From: Rhodospirillales bacterium
GTDB taxonomy: Bacteria > Pseudomonadota > Alphaproteobacteria > ATCC43930 > CGMCC-115725
NCBI GenBank assembly: GCA_027315365.1
Contig: DAHUYF010000029.1
Span: 1-64,000 of the forward strand
Length of the DNA: 64,000 bases
Reading direction: 5' to 3'
The notes beneath the pieces are model-generated. The model searched no databases and was not told the origin of the DNA. It saw only the letters and a program-made list of their open reading frames with translations. This document shows positions 2,152 to 8,561 of the stretch, one piece after another; position 1 is the first letter of the stretch; each line of letters starts with the position of its first letter. The translations under genes and the position numbers were made by a program.

Positions 2152-2231
2152 CCCGTTTCTCCCCGCCGCCATATTCGGTAATTGACTACCGATTTAGAGC
2201 GGAAGTCTGCACCACCGCGGCGCCGATGTAT

Positions 2232-2245
2232 TTGATCTGGATCAA
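2232..2245. promoter_or_regulatory. FNR/Anr/FixK-type binding site upstream of the thioesterase-paaK operon
   Basis: TTGATCTGGATCAA matches the TTGAT-N4-ATCAA consensus of the FNR/Anr/FixK regulators at all ten defined positions. It lies 80 bases upstream of the thioesterase start. A class II arrangement (centre near -41.5) would place the transcription start near 2197, leaving a leader of about 45 bases. The divergent GNAT gene begins 156 bases to the right and could also respond. A box of the same form precedes the padB-like gene. Confidence 0.7.
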
Positions 2246-2283
2246 TCCACCAGCGGCCGGGACGCGGCACCGCCGACTGGAAC

Positions 2284-2301
2284 TAAATTGGTACCAATTT
2301 A
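2284..2301. promoter_or_regulatory. 18-bp perfect palindrome, probable operator
   Basis: TAAATTGGTACCAATTTA reads the same on both strands without a mismatch. It lies in the divergent region between the thioesterase and GNAT genes, in DNA far more AT-rich than its surroundings. The TTGGTACCAA core resembles the half-sites of some GntR-type repressors, and an Rrf2-type regulator is encoded two genes away. Which protein binds is unknown. Confidence 0.5.
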
Positions 2302-2400
2302 CGTATTTACATCCGGCGCCGAATGCGCCAATCTTGCGGAGCGCGGCATGGCGGCGGTGGATCGACGCCGCGCCGCCGCTTCCGGCGGCTGAGGGGCGCG

Positions 2401-2886
2401 ATGAAGACAGCGGCCACGGTCGATGCGAACGCGGGACTGCACATGCGCCCGGCACACGCCGAGGACGTGCCCGCGGTCATCGCTCTCGACGAAGAAGTGA
2501 CGGGTCTCGCCAAGCCCGGCTACTGGCGCGACATGTTCGAGCGCTTCGGCGAGCGTCGGCGCGACCAGCGTTTCTTCCTCGTCGCCGAACGCCAGGGCCG
2601 AATCGAGGGCTTCGTCATCGGCGAGACGCGCGCCTGGGAGTTCGGCTCGCCGCCTTGCGGCTGGATCTTCGCCATCCAGGTCCGCCCCAAGAGCCGCCTC
2701 AAGGGCCTCGGCACGCAGCTCTTCAACGCTATCTGCGACCGCTTCCGCAAGACCGGCGTGGTCAATGTCCGCACCATGCTGGCGCGCGACAACACCACCA
2801 TTCTCTCCTTTTTCCGCAGCCAGGGGATGATGGCGGGTCCGTTCATCGAGCTCGAGACCACGCTTGAGAGCGGCCCCAACTCATGA
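2401..2886 (+). CDS. GNAT-family N-acetyltransferase
   Basis: A 161-residue single-domain acetyltransferase. The acetyl-CoA pyrophosphate-binding stretch is IQVRPKSRLKGLGTQLF in the middle of the protein, with the RxxGxG-type turn (RLKGLG), followed by VVNVRTMLARDNTTILSFF in the usual strand 5/helix region. The reading frame is open further upstream, but that extension is Arg- and Gly-rich and unlike the family, so the ATG at 2401 is preferred. It overlaps the next gene by four bases (ATGA), so the two are probably translationally coupled. The acyl acceptor cannot be told from sequence. Confidence 0.75.
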   Translation: MKTAATVDANAGLHMRPAHAEDVPAVIALDEEVTGLAKPGYWRDMFERFGERRRDQRFFLVAERQGRIEGFVIGETRAWEFGSPPCGWIFAIQVRPKSRLKGLGTQLFNAICDRFRKTGVVNVRTMLARDNTTILSFFRSQGMMAGPFIELETTLESGPNS

Positions 2887-3344
2887 AGCTGCAGAAGGCC
2901 ACCTGCTTCGCGCTGTTCGCCGTGCTCGAGCTCGCCGCCGACCCGACGCGCCAGCTCGCGGCCGCCGAGATCGCCGACAAGTACGGCATCTCGCTGCACC
3001 ATCTGGCGAAGGTGCTGCGCGACCTCGGCCGGGCCGGGATCGTCGACGCGGCCCGGGGCGTCGGCGGCGGCTACCGCTTCGCGGGCAATCCGAAGCGCCT
3101 GACCCTGATGGACGTGATCGAGCTTTTCGAGGAGATTGAGGGCGATACGCTCGGCGGCGACGAGCCGCGGGCTCCGACCGATGTCGGGCGCGCGCTGCGC
3201 CTCGTGCTGAACGAGATCGACGAGCACGCACTCGCCACCTTCCGCTCGATCACCATTTCCACCATGCTGAAGATCGTCCGCCAGCGTCCCTGGACCGCAG
3301 CGCTCGGCGAGCGCCGGCCGCGCAGGCGGGCGCAGCGCGGCTGA
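2883..3344 (+). CDS. Rrf2-family transcriptional regulator
   Basis: A 153-residue protein with an N-terminal winged helix: LQKATCFALFAVLELA, then AEIADKYGISLHHLAKVLRDLGRAGIV as the helix-turn-helix, then the glycine-rich wing RGVGGGYRFAG. The family includes IscR, NsrR and RirA. Only one cysteine (Cys8) is present, so the three-cysteine cluster site of IscR and NsrR is absent and an iron-sulfur sensor of that type is unlikely. The C-terminal tail is Arg-rich. It is coupled to the GNAT gene and lies between the thioesterase-paaK and padBCD-like operons, making it a candidate local regulator. Confidence 0.85.
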   Translation: MKLQKATCFALFAVLELAADPTRQLAAAEIADKYGISLHHLAKVLRDLGRAGIVDAARGVGGGYRFAGNPKRLTLMDVIELFEEIEGDTLGGDEPRAPTDVGRALRLVLNEIDEHALATFRSITISTMLKIVRQRPWTAALGERRPRRRAQRG

Positions 3345-3411
3345 GCGCCGCAGCGCGCACGTCGTTCATGGCATCGGTGGGAGCATCCCTTTGCCGCATT
3401 ACAGGTGAGCC

Positions 3412-4122
3412 ATGGCCGAAACCGTAACCAACGCCGCCGCGATCGGCGAAGACTACCTGCAGCCCGGACGCTTCATTGACAGCGATCACCCCGCTATCGC
3501 CGCCTTCGCAGTGCGCGCGACGGCGAGCGCCTCCGACCCGGTGGCCGCCGCGGTCAAGCTCTACTACGCCGTGCGCGACGAGATCCTCTACGATCCCTAT
3601 GTCCCTGCCGAGGATCCCGACACCTACCGCGCCAGCGCCGTGTTGGCGAAGGGGCGTGGATATTGCGTCGGCAAGGCCTCGCTGCTCGCCGCCGCCGCCC
3701 GGGTGCGCGGCATTCCGGCGCGGGTCGCTTTCGCCGATGTGCGCAATCACCTGGCGACGCCGCGCCTGCTCGAGCTGATCGGCACCGACATCTTCGTCTA
3801 TCACGGCATCACCGAGCTGTGGCTCGACGGGCGCTGGATCAAGGCGACGCCCACCTTCAACCTGACGCTCTGTGAGAAATTCCGCATTCGCCCGCTCGAT
3901 TTTGACGGGCGCGCCGACGCGGTGTTCCACCCGTTCGATCGCGACGGCCGCCGGCACATGGAATATCTGCGCCAGCGCGGCAGCTATGCCGACGTGCCGG
4001 TCGACGTTCTCATGCCGGCCATGCTCGAGGCCTATCCGCGTCTCGCCGAATTCGGCAAGGCGCCGCGCGGCGATTTCGCGAGGGAAGCGGAGGAGCAGGC
4101 GCAGGGATCGTCGCACGGGTGA
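3412..4122 (+). CDS. Transglutaminase-like cysteine protein
   Basis: A 236-residue protein with a transglutaminase-like papain-type core. Cys85 lies in GRGYCVGKASLLAAAARVRGIPAR, the classic cysteine helix, and His131 in VYHGITELWLDGRW. The third catalytic position, usually Asp, appears as Thr in KATPTFN. The first 40 residues and the last 60 carry no recognised domain. There is no signal peptide, so it is probably cytoplasmic. It starts 67 bases after the Rrf2 gene and converges on the padBCD-like operon. Members of this fold act as peptidases or amidases as often as transglutaminases, so the reaction is open. Confidence 0.75.
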   Translation: MAETVTNAAAIGEDYLQPGRFIDSDHPAIAAFAVRATASASDPVAAAVKLYYAVRDEILYDPYVPAEDPDTYRASAVLAKGRGYCVGKASLLAAAARVRGIPARVAFADVRNHLATPRLLELIGTDIFVYHGITELWLDGRWIKATPTFNLTLCEKFRIRPLDFDGRADAVFHPFDRDGRRHMEYLRQRGSYADVPVDVLMPAMLEAYPRLAEFGKAPRGDFAREAEEQAQGSSHG

Positions 4123-4188
4123 CGGAGCAGGACATCAAAAAGGTCGCCGCGCCAAGCCGGCAGTAGCGGCAGACCGGCTTTGCTGCCG

Positions 4189-5070
4189 CTACTGCCAACC
4201 CGGTCTGGCCCCCGGTCCGCTGAGCCCACCGCCGCGCACCGGGGTGATCGGCAGGACCACGCCCTGCGTAAAGGCCATGCGGGTGACCAGCCTGGACTTG
4301 AGCAGCCACCCGCCGGCCACAGCCAGCAATGCAGCGGCGAGAACGGCCGCTCCGGCGGCCTCGGGCAGCACAGCCGCCGCCAGGATGAGCGCCGCCGGCA
4401 GACCGTGAAAGGCCAGCGACAGCGGCCGGTCCAGCGCATCGACCACGGCCCGCGCCTTGACCGGCACCGTTCCCGAGTTCAGGCGGGCGGCGTAGAGGCG
4501 CCAGCTCAGCCAGCGCGCGGCCAGCAGTCCAAACAGCATCCATGCGGCAGAGGCGGGAACGGCTCGGGCGAGCGTGAACGACAGCAGCAAGGTCAGTCCG
4601 GCGCCCTCGGTCAGGCTGGTCGCCAGGATCAGCGGCACCACCAGCGGCTCGCGCCAGGCGGGAATGCCGCGCGAGGCCGTAAGTATCCGCGCCTGACAAT
4701 AGACGAAGGCGACCGCAGCCAGCGTTGCCGCGCGGAGCGGCACTGGCGAGCCGAGCAGAACCGCGCCGCCGCAAAATGCGTAAACCAGCACGGCGGCAAC
4801 CGCCTCGCGCGTCATCCACGAGGTCCGCAGGTGAAGGAAGACGTTGAGCGCGCGCCACGGCCTGCCGATCTCCAGCCAGACGCAGGCGAGGCCGAAGCCG
4901 ATCAGCGCACCAGCCAGCAACACCGTCGGCCGGGGCGCCGAACCGGCAATGTCGCCGACGATCAGCAGCCCCGCCCCCGCCCCGCCGGCGATGAAATTGC
5001 AGGCGGCGCGCCAATCCCAGTTGGCCTGCTGCCGTGGACCGGACACCGCCCGGCCGGCGATTACGCTCAT
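4189..5070 (-). CDS. Membrane anchor subunit of the molybdopterin oxidoreductase (DmsC/NrfD type, PadD-like)
   Basis: A 293-residue integral membrane protein with about eight hydrophobic helices and the family signatures NFIAGGAGAGLL near the N-terminus and WLEIGRPWRALNVF, where a Gly-Arg-Pro loop is typical of quinone-linked NrfD/DmsC anchors. It would hold the catalytic and iron-sulfur subunits on the membrane and pass electrons to the quinone pool. The ATG at 5070 overlaps the stop of the iron-sulfur gene by four bases (ATGA). An upstream ATG at 5085 is possible but less likely given this coupling. The PadD assignment rests on context. Confidence 0.75.
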   Translation of the reverse strand: MSVIAGRAVSGPRQQANWDWRAACNFIAGGAGAGLLIVGDIAGSAPRPTVLLAGALIGFGLACVWLEIGRPWRALNVFLHLRTSWMTREAVAAVLVYAFCGGAVLLGSPVPLRAATLAAVAFVYCQARILTASRGIPAWREPLVVPLILATSLTEGAGLTLLLSFTLARAVPASAAWMLFGLLAARWLSWRLYAARLNSGTVPVKARAVVDALDRPLSLAFHGLPAALILAAAVLPEAAGAAVLAAALLAVAGGWLLKSRLVTRMAFTQGVVLPITPVRGGGLSGPGARPGWQ

Positions 5071-5714
5071 CGGCCCTTGTCCCACAGGTAGTAGATGTTG
5101 GGCCCGGTCCCGAGTTCCTCATGCATGCGAAACCATTCGTTGCTCGCCAGGAGCAGCGACACCGGGCTCTCGGGATCGTCGAGGTCGCCGAAATGCAGCG
5201 CCCCGGCGATGCATGAATTGACGCAGACCGGCGTCGCCTCCGGATCGACACCCGGCACCTTGCCGGTGGCGAGCCCGGCATCGAGGCGATCGGCGCAGAA
5301 GGTGCATTTGGTCGCCACCCCGACCCTTTTCTCGTCGATCCGCGCCTGCTCGCTGTCCAGGGCGACGCCATAAGCGAATTCGACGGTGTCGACCTTGAAG
5401 CGGGCATCGTAGGGGCAGGCCAGCGCGCAGTAGGAACAGCCGATGCACAGCTCGTAGTCGATGGTGACGATGCCGTCGGCGCGCTTCCCGGTAGCCCGCG
5501 TGGGGCAGACCTCCATACAGGGCGGCTGGTCGCAATGCTGGCAGCCGGTGGGAATGAAGACGCGGCGCACCGCCGGATACTCCCCGACTTCGATGTCCAG
5601 GACCCGCCGCCACTGCACCCCAGGCGGCGTGGCGTTGGCCTCCTTGCACGCCGCCGTGCAAGTCTGGCAGCCGACGCAACGCCGAAGATCGGCGATCATG
5701 GCATAGCGCGTCAC
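5067..5714 (-). CDS. Iron-sulfur subunit of the molybdopterin oxidoreductase (DmsB/NrfC type, PadC-like)
   Basis: A 215-residue ferredoxin-like electron-transfer subunit. Four cysteine groups are visible: C13-x2-C16-x2-C19-x3-C23, then CQHCDQPPCMEVCP, then CIGCSYCALACP, then CTFC paired with a later CVNSC. This is the pattern for four [4Fe-4S] clusters in the DmsB, PsrB and NrfC group. The GTG at 5714 overlaps the stop of the catalytic gene (GTGA), and its own stop overlaps the anchor start (ATGA), so the three genes are tightly coupled. A much longer open frame upstream is an artefact, because it would run through the catalytic gene. There is no signal peptide. Confidence 0.85.
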   Translation of the reverse strand: MTRYAMIADLRRCVGCQTCTAACKEANATPPGVQWRRVLDIEVGEYPAVRRVFIPTGCQHCDQPPCMEVCPTRATGKRADGIVTIDYELCIGCSYCALACPYDARFKVDTVEFAYGVALDSEQARIDEKRVGVATKCTFCADRLDAGLATGKVPGVDPEATPVCVNSCIAGALHFGDLDDPESPVSLLLASNEWFRMHEELGTGPNIYYLWDKGR

Positions 5715-8476
5715 GCCCGGTCTCCGGCGAAGGGACCGTCCACGCGCCGCACCGAGACCCGCACCACGTCGGCGCCCGAGCCGGTCGCGTCGGTCAAGGC
5801 CAGCGCCTCGCGGGACATGGTGGTCAGCCGGTTGAGGGAGGGAAAGTTCAGATCCTTGGCGTAGGGCGTCTTCCAGTGGTGGAACTGGCCGGGGATGACG
5901 ATCGTGTCGGGGCGGCAGCCCTGGACCGGCTCGGCCCGGCCGCGGGTGACGCCGGCGGTCGAGCGGACTTCGACCCAGTCGTCGCGCTCGACGCCAAGGC
6001 TGCGCGCCGTGGCAGCGTTGAGGATGACCCGCCCATGGCCACGCATGTTGCCGGCGACTTCGTCCATCAACGGAATGCCGACATTGGCGCCGGTGCTGTA
6101 CTGCATGCTCTTGGTGGTAATCCCCCAGAGCGGGTAGTCGGCGGGATCGCCGCCGGCAGCGCGCACCGCCTCGATCCAGAGGCCGGGGACATCGTGCCAT
6201 TCCGGCAGCGCGCGATATTCGTCCAGCTGCCGGTCCCACCAATGGATGCCCTGCCCGTGCAGGCGGCGCTTCAGCTCCTCGCCGATGCGCAGCAGCCGCT
6301 CCTGGTAGGGCAGTTCGAAGCGCAGGCCCTGCTCCACCATCGTCGGATAGAGGTACCAGTCGACCCGGGTGTGGGGGACGACGAAGAACCCGGATCGCTT
6401 CATCCAGGCGAGATCCCTGACCTCGGCGCCGCCGGTCAGCTCGGCGGTCGCGGCCTTGCACACCGCATCCCAGATCGCCTCGGCCGGGTTGACCCGATCG
6501 GTGGGCAGCGAGAAATCGTAGCCCTCGCCCTTGAGCGGCACCAGCGCCGAGCCGCGGTTGATCCGCTCGTTATAAGCCTCGAGCAGGCCGGTGCGCTCCG
6601 CCAGTTGAGTCGCGATCCAGGTGAAGTCGCGAGCCTCGCCCCTGGGCTCGACCACCTTCTGGCGCAGCACCACGCCCTGATGCGCCCAATGCTGCTCGAC
6701 GAATTTGGTGCCGCCGATGCGGATCAGCTGCGTGCTCTCGAGGTCGGTGGCCTCGGGCAGCAGGATGTCCGCCATATGGTTGGTCTCGTCCAGGGTATAG
6801 GCGAAGGCCACGATGTAGGGCAGCTTGCCGATGGTGTCGGTGAGGCGCTCGCTCTGCCAGAACGAGATCGCCGGGTTGGTGCGATAGGCAAACCACAGCT
6901 CAGGCATGGTCGGCTGCGGCCAATGGTCGGGCGCCTCGCGCATGAACATCCAGGCCAGATGGGTCGGGCCCAGCGCCTGGCTCCACGGGCCGGTGCCGAC
7001 ATGCGGCACCAGGGTGCGATGGGCGTTGCGCCCGGTCGGCTTGCCGATCCACTTGTCGAGGCCGGTGGGGTTGAACGTGCAGTTCATGAAGCCGTCCTCG
7101 CCCGGCTTGACGCTCAACAGCCGGTTCTCATGCGGCCGGTTGAGGCGCACGGTGGTGCCCAGGAGCCCGCCCGGCACCTCCAACGCGCCGACGATGGTGG
7201 CGAGCACGGTGCGCGCCCAGCAGCACTCGAAGGCGCCCCAGCCATTGTTGACGGTCTTGCCGAGGACGACCGCGACCGGGCGATAGGGCAGCCTCCGCCC
7301 GTCGATCTCGATGCTCTGGCCGATGCAGGCGTTGTCGAGATACTCCAGTGCGATCCGGCGGATGGTCGCCGCCGGCACATCGCAGACCGAGGCGGCCCAA
7401 TCGGGGCTGTGCGCGCGCATGGCCTCGACCAGGGCGGCGAAGGATGGCCGCGCGACGGCGTCCTGGTGGCGGATCACCTCGCCGTCCGCATGGTGGCTGA
7501 CGGCGGCCGCCACGGTGAACTCTCCCGCCAGCGCCGGCACCGCGCCGGGATGATCGAACGGCACCGGCGCATTGCTGCGCGTGTCCCACATCAGCGGCTT
7601 GCCGCTGTCGGACGCCCGCAGATAATAGCCTTCGGCGCCGACCAGATAGGGGGCGGCAGTGCGATCGCGCAGAAAGTCGATGTCGAGCCGCTCGATCGGC
7701 ACGTCGCACAACAGCACGTGCAGCAGGGCGAACAGGAAGGCGGCGTCGGTCTTCGGCTTGATCGGCACCCATTCGGCCGAACAGGCTCCGGTCACCGAGA
7801 GATGCGGTTCGATCTGTACCCGTTTGACGCCGCGGCTGCGGGCATCGGCATGGCGCCGCACGGCGCAGACGCCGCCGGTAACCTCGACATTGGCGCCGCA
7901 CGAGACGATGTAGCGGCTGTGAACGGTGTCCGAGGCGACGGTAAAGCCGCGATGCCAGAACTCGCCGTAGAGGTGCTCGGAGTGGGTGCATTTGACTCCC
8001 TGCCCCGAGCCGAGGCTGTAGTCGATCTGTCCCCAGGCGGCGAGAAACGCGGGCAGCGTTCCCATGTAGCTGGCCGGTGTGCCGCCATGTCCGAAGGTGG
8101 CGGCCACGCGCGGCAGCCCCTGCTCGTCCAGGAGCCCGCGCGCCCGGATGTCGTTGAGCTTGGCGGCAACCGTCGCCAGCGCCTCGTCCCACGAGATCGG
8201 CACGAAGCCGGGGTCCTGATCACGACCCTTCCTCGGGTTCGTGCGCTTCATCGGGGCCAGGACGCGATGAGGGTTGTAGGTTTTCTGCACCAGGCCATAG
8301 GCCCGGACGCAAGGCCGCCCGTCCGCAGGATGGATGCCGGCGCCGGCGTGATTGGGCTCTATCGTGGTAGCGACGCCGTCCTCGACCAGCACATTCAGCA
8401 GGTCGGGCCCCGCCACGCAATTGTAGCAGTAGGTGGGAACCCGCCGCGTATCGGACTTTATCGTCGCTGTCGCCAC
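5711..8476 (-). CDS. Molybdopterin oxidoreductase catalytic subunit, probably PadB-like phenylacetyl-CoA:acceptor oxidoreductase
   Basis: A 921-residue member of the DMSO reductase superfamily. The N-terminal cluster motif is Cys17-x2-Cys20 with Cys56 further on; the third cysteine expected four residues after Cys20 is absent (Pro24, with Asp25 beside it). The segment SGQGVKCTHSEHLYGEF (residues 157-173) is a candidate region for the molybdenum ligand. The C-terminal cofactor-binding domain contains RVILNAATARSLGVERDDWVEVRS. No twin-arginine leader is seen, so the enzyme should face the cytoplasm, as expected for a CoA-thioester substrate. In known Pad enzymes phenylacetyl-CoA is oxidised to phenylglyoxylate with quinone as acceptor. 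The name rests on paaK nearby, the three-subunit layout and the missing leader. Other oxidoreductases of this superfamily cannot be excluded. Confidence 0.6.
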   Translation of the reverse strand: MATATIKSDTRRVPTYCYNCVAGPDLLNVLVEDGVATTIEPNHAGAGIHPADGRPCVRAYGLVQKTYNPHRVLAPMKRTNPRKGRDQDPGFVPISWDEALATVAAKLNDIRARGLLDEQGLPRVAATFGHGGTPASYMGTLPAFLAAWGQIDYSLGSGQGVKCTHSEHLYGEFWHRGFTVASDTVHSRYIVSCGANVEVTGGVCAVRRHADARSRGVKRVQIEPHLSVTGACSAEWVPIKPKTDAAFLFALLHVLLCDVPIERLDIDFLRDRTAAPYLVGAEGYYLRASDSGKPLMWDTRSNAPVPFDHPGAVPALAGEFTVAAAVSHHADGEVIRHQDAVARPSFAALVEAMRAHSPDWAASVCDVPAATIRRIALEYLDNACIGQSIEIDGRRLPYRPVAVVLGKTVNNGWGAFECCWARTVLATIVGALEVPGGLLGTTVRLNRPHENRLLSVKPGEDGFMNCTFNPTGLDKWIGKPTGRNAHRTLVPHVGTGPWSQALGPTHLAWMFMREAPDHWPQPTMPELWFAYRTNPAISFWQSERLTDTIGKLPYIVAFAYTLDETNHMADILLPEATDLESTQLIRIGGTKFVEQHWAHQGVVLRQKVVEPRGEARDFTWIATQLAERTGLLEAYNERINRGSALVPLKGEGYDFSLPTDRVNPAEAIWDAVCKAATAELTGGAEVRDLAWMKRSGFFVVPHTRVDWYLYPTMVEQGLRFELPYQERLLRIGEELKRRLHGQGIHWWDRQLDEYRALPEWHDVPGLWIEAVRAAGGDPADYPLWGITTKSMQYSTGANVGIPLMDEVAGNMRGHGRVILNAATARSLGVERDDWVEVRSTAGVTRGRAEPVQGCRPDTIVIPGQFHHWKTPYAKDLNFPSLNRLTTMSREALALTDATGSGADVVRVSVRRVDGPFAGDRA

Positions 8477-8547
8477 CCCACGCCCCTTTCGCGAGCATAG
8501 ATGCAGGCTCCATCAGACAGCCTAGGCCGATATCGCGGAACGGTCCC

Positions 8548-8561
8548 TTGATCTAGATCAA
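8548..8561. promoter_or_regulatory. FNR/Anr/FixK-type binding site upstream of the padBCD-like operon
   Basis: TTGATCTAGATCAA is a perfect 14-base palindrome and a perfect match to TTGAT-N4-ATCAA. It lies 71 bases upstream of the padB-like start. With the centre at -41.5 the transcript would begin near 8513, leaving a leader of about 37 bases. This geometry is close to that of the box at 2232-2245. Confidence 0.75.

Follow-up and report, generated by a model that had tools for sequence, protein, structure and literature searches.

Perfect FNR/FixK-type boxes mark phenylacetate activation and alpha-oxidation operons as a probable low-oxygen regulon in a Rhodospirillales bacterium

Two promoters of this Rhodospirillales bacterium carry perfect boxes that are very probably sites for an activator of the FNR/FixK kind and that, with a further box elsewhere in the genome, would place phenylacetate activation, alpha-oxidation and aromatic ring reduction in one low-oxygen regulon. 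We analyzed a stretch of 64,000 nucleotides (contig DAHUYF010000029.1, positions 1–64,000; hereafter the window), in which an initial annotation had proposed that a thioesterase-paaK operon and a padBCD-like operon are under joint FNR-type control. The proposal is supported, as far as sequence can carry it, by class II promoter spacing, by conservation of the box and by the set of boxes across the genome. Both boxes, at 2232–2245 (TTGATCTGGATCAA, or TTGATCCAGATCAA when read on the minus strand, the strand of the promoter) and at 8548–8561 (TTGATCTAGATCAA, also directed to the minus strand), match TTGAT-N4-ATCAA in full, and a pattern search of the whole window, which confirmed the annotated positions, returned these two perfect matches only. 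When up to one mismatch was allowed, three matches were found in the window against a mean of 0.40 in shuffled sequence, with no shuffle reaching three. The distances to the leftward start codons, annotated as 71–80 bases, are correct: the thioesterase ATG at 2151 lies 80 bases away and the padB GTG at 8476 lies 71. The thioesterase start at 2151 is favored over 2172, as MKAS/MKPS is kept in relatives and the upstream in-frame ATG is missing in two of them (G001 and G011).

The annotation regarded the controlled genes as parts of one plausible pathway, and they can be identified as a PaaK-like ligase and PadBCD orthologues. The first operon (minus strand) encodes a 140 aa FlK-like hotdog thioesterase (1729–2151; Pfam PF22636, 2.4e-30; FlK structures 3p3f and 3kv7), a component of the pad modules of relatives, and a PaaK-like phenylacetate-CoA ligase (216–1565; TIGR02155, 7e-174), which scores 578 bits on a model with a curated cut-off of 646 and has PaaK as its closest family. 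The second, also on the minus strand, encodes the molybdopterin subunit PadB (5711–8476), the iron-sulfur subunit PadC (5067–5714, overlapping the padB stop) and PadD, a DmsC-like membrane anchor (4189–5070) with a weak PF04976 match that is 40–59% identical to PadD of named loci. For PadB, 80 named loci lie at 64–81% identity, including Aromatoleum evansii KB740 (67%) and Thauera (65–66%); across the Aromatoleum and Thauera loci identity is 64–67% for PadB, 65–69% for PadC and 43–50% for PadD. Three plus-strand genes lie between the operons: a GNAT acetyltransferase (2401–2886) and an Rrf2-family regulator (2883–3344), both conserved neighbors of pad modules, and a transglutaminase-like protein (3412–4122) that is linked to the pad cluster in relative G011 too. 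The pad modules in the neighborhoods compared comprise the FlK-like thioesterase, padB, padC, padD, padEFGHI and paaK, often with GNAT-Rrf2; paaK adjoins padBCD at many loci and is the terminal gene of the thioesterase-padBCD-paaK order in G011.

Orthology to PadBCD is the basis on which we name the predicted product of padBCD phenylacetyl-CoA:acceptor oxidoreductase. None of the thiosulfate, arsenate and DMSO reductase models scored above cut-off against PadBCD of the window. A respiratory reductase of the polysulfide/thiosulfate type was rejected, its models falling far below cut-off and PadB lying among the PadB proteins of Aromatoleum, Thauera and Magnetospirillum. An enzyme resembling SoeABC was rejected on the same evidence, which covers the reductase models and PadB proteins just named.

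A genome scan of the kind that the annotation proposed (4.97 Mb, 99% complete, 215 contigs) found perfect boxes to be rare, largely intergenic and in several cases placed before anaerobic genes. There are 28 perfect boxes and no match to the reversed control pattern, while models using the base composition of the window predict 0.2 per genome for independent bases and 0.8–2.2 for first- to fourth-order Markov chains. The 12 relatives that also carry PadB have 5–48 perfect boxes each, with 0–2 control matches. That the boxes are chance matches of no regulatory meaning is barely credible: other perfect boxes do occur in the genome, one of them within a transposase gene (locus L035, position 2747, contig C188; the only box in coding sequence), but 28 were found against 1–2 expected, the remaining 27 are intergenic, and both a fixed distance to the -10 element and conservation in three lineages speak against it. 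The annotation had also held that two such boxes before genes of one pathway were unlikely to be a coincidence. This stands insofar as boxes are far above expectation; with 28 boxes in the genome, finding two of them 6 kb apart is in itself no surprise, and by simple arithmetic about one pair this close is expected at random, with four observed. The evidential weight of both boxes thus lies in promoter geometry and conservation, not in their closeness.

Genes outside the window were called with a simple codon-usage caller, so that details of the following may be wrong. Anaerobic genes adjacent to boxes include those for benzoyl-CoA reductase, KorAB, HemN, a hydrogenase maturation protease and a NorC-like cytochrome c; further boxes adjoin genes for a sulfide:quinone-reductase-like protein, a ribosome hibernation factor and an ABC-type aromatic/amino-acid binding protein, and some precede genes without an obvious anaerobic role (protocatechuate dioxygenase, a fabI-like gene and DUF3775). 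One divergent box is common to had-dch-bcrCBAD-fdx and korAB (contig C109), and BcrA, BcrB, BcrC, BcrD, Dch and Had all score above their NCBIfam equivalog cut-offs. Because this box sits between the two operons, benzoate ring reduction can be placed in the same regulon. On contig C34, perfect boxes precede a TENA/PqqC-family gene and a protocatechuate 3,4-dioxygenase beta-like gene (L042, 1798 and 2697); the product of the latter requires oxygen, and low-oxygen repression or microaerobic use are possible explanations. Two separate DUF3775 genes adjoin perfect boxes (L045, 5335; L046, 5009), one of them next to the ribosome hibernation factor gene.

Promoter geometry was assessed by scoring the -10 hexamer at every distance downstream of 26 boxes of the genome itself. 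The score has a single sharp peak 22 nt past the box (mean 2.95 against about 1.2 elsewhere), a height matched in none of 20,000 draws with random offsets. A spacing of 22 nt between box and -10 element is the class II arrangement, with the box centered at -41.5. The putative -10 element of the thioesterase promoter, CAGACT (2204–2209, minus strand), lies at exactly this distance, with transcription predicted to start near 2197, and the thioesterase promoters of relatives have CAGAAT, CACACT and CAAACT at identical spacing. For padBCD the putative -10 element is TAGGCT (8519–8524, minus strand), 23 nt past its box and so slightly off the optimum. The box at 2232 was also considered as the driver of the GNAT-Rrf2 operon; the -10 match in that direction is weak and the start lies 162 bp away, so we take the box to be directed at the thioesterase and reject the opposite direction as its main role.

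Conservation was tested at the first gene of each pad operon, with a box scored within 250 bp, using loci outside the window. A perfect box is found at 22 of 110 pad operon leaders, whereas the other promoters of these loci have one in 6 of 361 cases (Fisher 2e-10, a value that overstates the case because the rows are related). The safer statement is that the box is carried in three separate lineages, namely the bacterium's own family with G120, an Acetobacteraceae/Rhodopila-type clade, and Aromatoleum, in which four fdhD leaders have perfect boxes and A. evansii has one with a single mismatch at the same spot. Before the thioesterase gene the box is conserved as ATTGATCCAGATCAAATACA in G001, G003 and G011, at about the same distance as in the window. 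Many homologous pad loci, among them those of Magnetospirillum, Thauera and Rubrivivax, showed no box within the tested stretch, and FNR-type control of pad is thus not universal. This agrees, for the Magnetospirillum-type loci, with the rarity of the FNR motif reported in Magnetospirillum sp. 15-1 (PMC7285207).

These relatives also bear on how the two operons came to be separate. In G001 and G003, which belong to the same genus, the thioesterase gene (product 81–86% identical) stands directly before padB-padC and is divergent from GNAT and Rrf2, and in G011 the order is thioesterase-padB-padC-padD-paaK, with pad adjoining bcr genes. The pad operon of G011 is set apart by a divergent pair of FNR boxes (L158, 10503 and 10645) from the genes for an ABC transporter, beyond which come transglutaminase, GNAT and Rrf2 genes; in the genome studied here a box also precedes the gene for the orthologue of this transporter's binding protein (82%, C7:14814). 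PadB of the window is 60–63% identical to full-length PadB of its own genus and family (67% over one partial copy), and in the PadB tree it groups with Paramagnetospirillum, Phaeospirillum and Terasakiella (96% SH-aLRT), outside the family clade (100%). Synteny and the PadB tree together suggest that an ancestral thioesterase-padBCD-paaK operon was probably split, its padBCD being replaced by a foreign version; an old padBCD paralogue lost elsewhere is an alternative origin. No remnant of a native padBCD was found between the thioesterase and paaK genes.

A rival reading is that the box before padB is a chance or decaying match, leaving the thioesterase-paaK box as the functional one and padBCD expressed by other means. 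The DNA upstream of padB in the window has no similarity beyond the coding part to any locus fetched, and the Magnetospirillum-type pad loci, with which this PadB groups, lack a box. A non-functional box is nevertheless very unlikely, since a perfect match combined with a near-ideal distance to the -10 element would be very improbable by chance at 1–2 boxes expected per genome, and no other recognized element is present in the padB promoter.

PadBCD should yield phenylglyoxylate, which PadEFGHI normally converts to benzoyl-CoA. In the genome of this bacterium no PadI above cut-off and no close PadG was found, the best PadG matches (30–39%) being to Kor/2-oxoacid oxidoreductases; because padEFGHI was not found, the PadBCD name rests on orthology and not on a complete pathway. 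Among the 13 PadB-carrying genomes tested, some of them incomplete, PadI exceeds its cut-off in one and BcrC does so in nine. The pathway here therefore appears without its usual phenylglyoxylate dehydrogenase, despite PadBCD and a bcr-type benzoyl-CoA reductase. KorAB, or a 2-oxoacid oxidoreductase encoded on contig C121, is a possible stand-in for this step. A more elaborate and tentative scenario, which we consider possible but rather doubtful, is that foreign padBCD replaced the native genes, that its own class II FNR box kept it under oxygen control, and that the phenylglyoxylate step falls to a different enzyme, perhaps the FNR-controlled KorAB, in place of PadEFGHI. If true, such a step would make this a variant route of anaerobic phenylacetate degradation.

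On sequence, any of three proteins could be the binder of the boxes. The FNR protein (L016, contig C3) carries C-x2-C-x7-C close to its N terminus, a further cysteine that aligns with the fourth ligand of FNR, and a recognition helix, ETASR, that fits E-x2-SR; its best relatives among solved structures are FixK2 and an FNR regulator. A FixK-like protein (L017, contig C130) has ETVSR and is without the cluster cysteines, and an NnrR/DNR-like protein of the CRP family is encoded on contig C21. A nitric-oxide-responsive regulator of the NnrR/DNR type could in principle be the main reader, in which case the operons would follow denitrification intermediates and not oxygen. The gene on C21 is close to the box before the NorC-like cytochrome c gene, and DNR-type sites are similar to FNR sites. 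We consider this reading unlikely, as the four-cysteine FNR and the FixK-like protein are also encoded and the site, TTGATC-N2-GATCAA, agrees with the FnrN/FixK consensus of alphaproteobacteria, TTGANCNNGATCAA (PMC4999443).

The preferred reading is that an FNR/FixK-type activator of the CRP/FNR family would bind both boxes at low oxygen and, centered about 41.5 bases upstream of each leftward transcript start, recruit RNA polymerase in the class II manner. One promoter would then supply the FlK-like thioesterase and the PaaK-like ligase and the other PadBCD, while elsewhere in the genome the shared divergent box would serve the benzoyl-CoA reductase operon and korAB.

A further element, a second conserved palindrome (2171–2195, no strand assigned) with the core TCGGTA-N6-TACCGA at 2175–2192 (AAATCGGTA-N6-TACCGAATA), stands in the thioesterase promoter downstream of the FNR box and ahead of the thioesterase ATG. 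The core is found near the pad operon with zero or one mismatch in G001, G003, G005, G011, G013, G038 and G128, with a looser version at Acetobacteraceae-type pad loci; the genome has one perfect copy, and one-mismatch copies are at control level. Because it lies just downstream of the predicted transcript start, the palindrome resembles a repressor site, probably one for a pathway-specific regulator, with the neighboring Rrf2 protein as a candidate reader. By analogy with BzdR, it may add repression that is lifted by a pathway intermediate. The palindrome is absent from the padBCD promoter, and with this extra putative operator at the thioesterase promoter the response of the two operons may differ. 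A perfect 16-bp palindrome, AAATTGGTACCAATTT, lies on the GNAT side of the divergent region (2285–2300); it is at best a possible conserved operator, being kept no more than weakly in G003.

That FNR-type regulators control the anaerobic catabolism of aromatics is already established through AcpR and AadR, and in the open-access literature searched we found no report that pad genes are under FNR control. AadR of Rhodopseudomonas palustris, a cysteine-bearing regulator of the FnrN branch that controls anaerobic aromatic acid degradation (PMC4999443), resembles the present case in its alphaproteobacterial host and in the process predicted to be controlled, and may do so in regulator type, although benzoate degradation in R. 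palustris is a different route from phenylacetate alpha-oxidation. Aromatoleum (A. evansii KB740, A. toluclasticum) shares orthologous padBCD (PadB 66–67%), paaK in the cluster and a perfect or one-mismatch box ahead of an fdhD-padBCD leader; it differs in that padEFGHI come next and a gene for a PaaX-like regulator is adjacent, neither of which is present here. For A. aromaticum EbN1, pad is linked to a padR regulator, and denitrification genes are reported to have FNR motifs (PMC9765128). A parallel in architecture is the bzd promoter PN of Azoarcus sp. CIB, where the FNR/CRP-family protein AcpR has its site at -41.5 and the BzdR operator overlaps -10 and +1 (PMC6678401). Both systems combine an activator site at -41.5 of an anaerobic aromatic operon with a site, putative in our case, for a pathway repressor. 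The bzd system, however, serves a bzd-type benzoyl-CoA reductase, whereas PadBCD, a PaaK-like ligase and a bcr-type reductase are found here, and the second palindrome differs in sequence from the BzdR operator. What is new against this background is that the single-box thioesterase-padBCD(-paaK) operon of relatives is split, with a probably foreign padBCD under its own box, that the usual padEFGHI step is missing, and that exact promoter elements can be named together with a previously unclaimed, putative second operator and a candidate regulator next door. FNR-type control would bring the anaerobic degradation of phenylacetate in alpha- and betaproteobacteria under the kind of low-oxygen switch that governs denitrification and benzoyl-CoA reduction.
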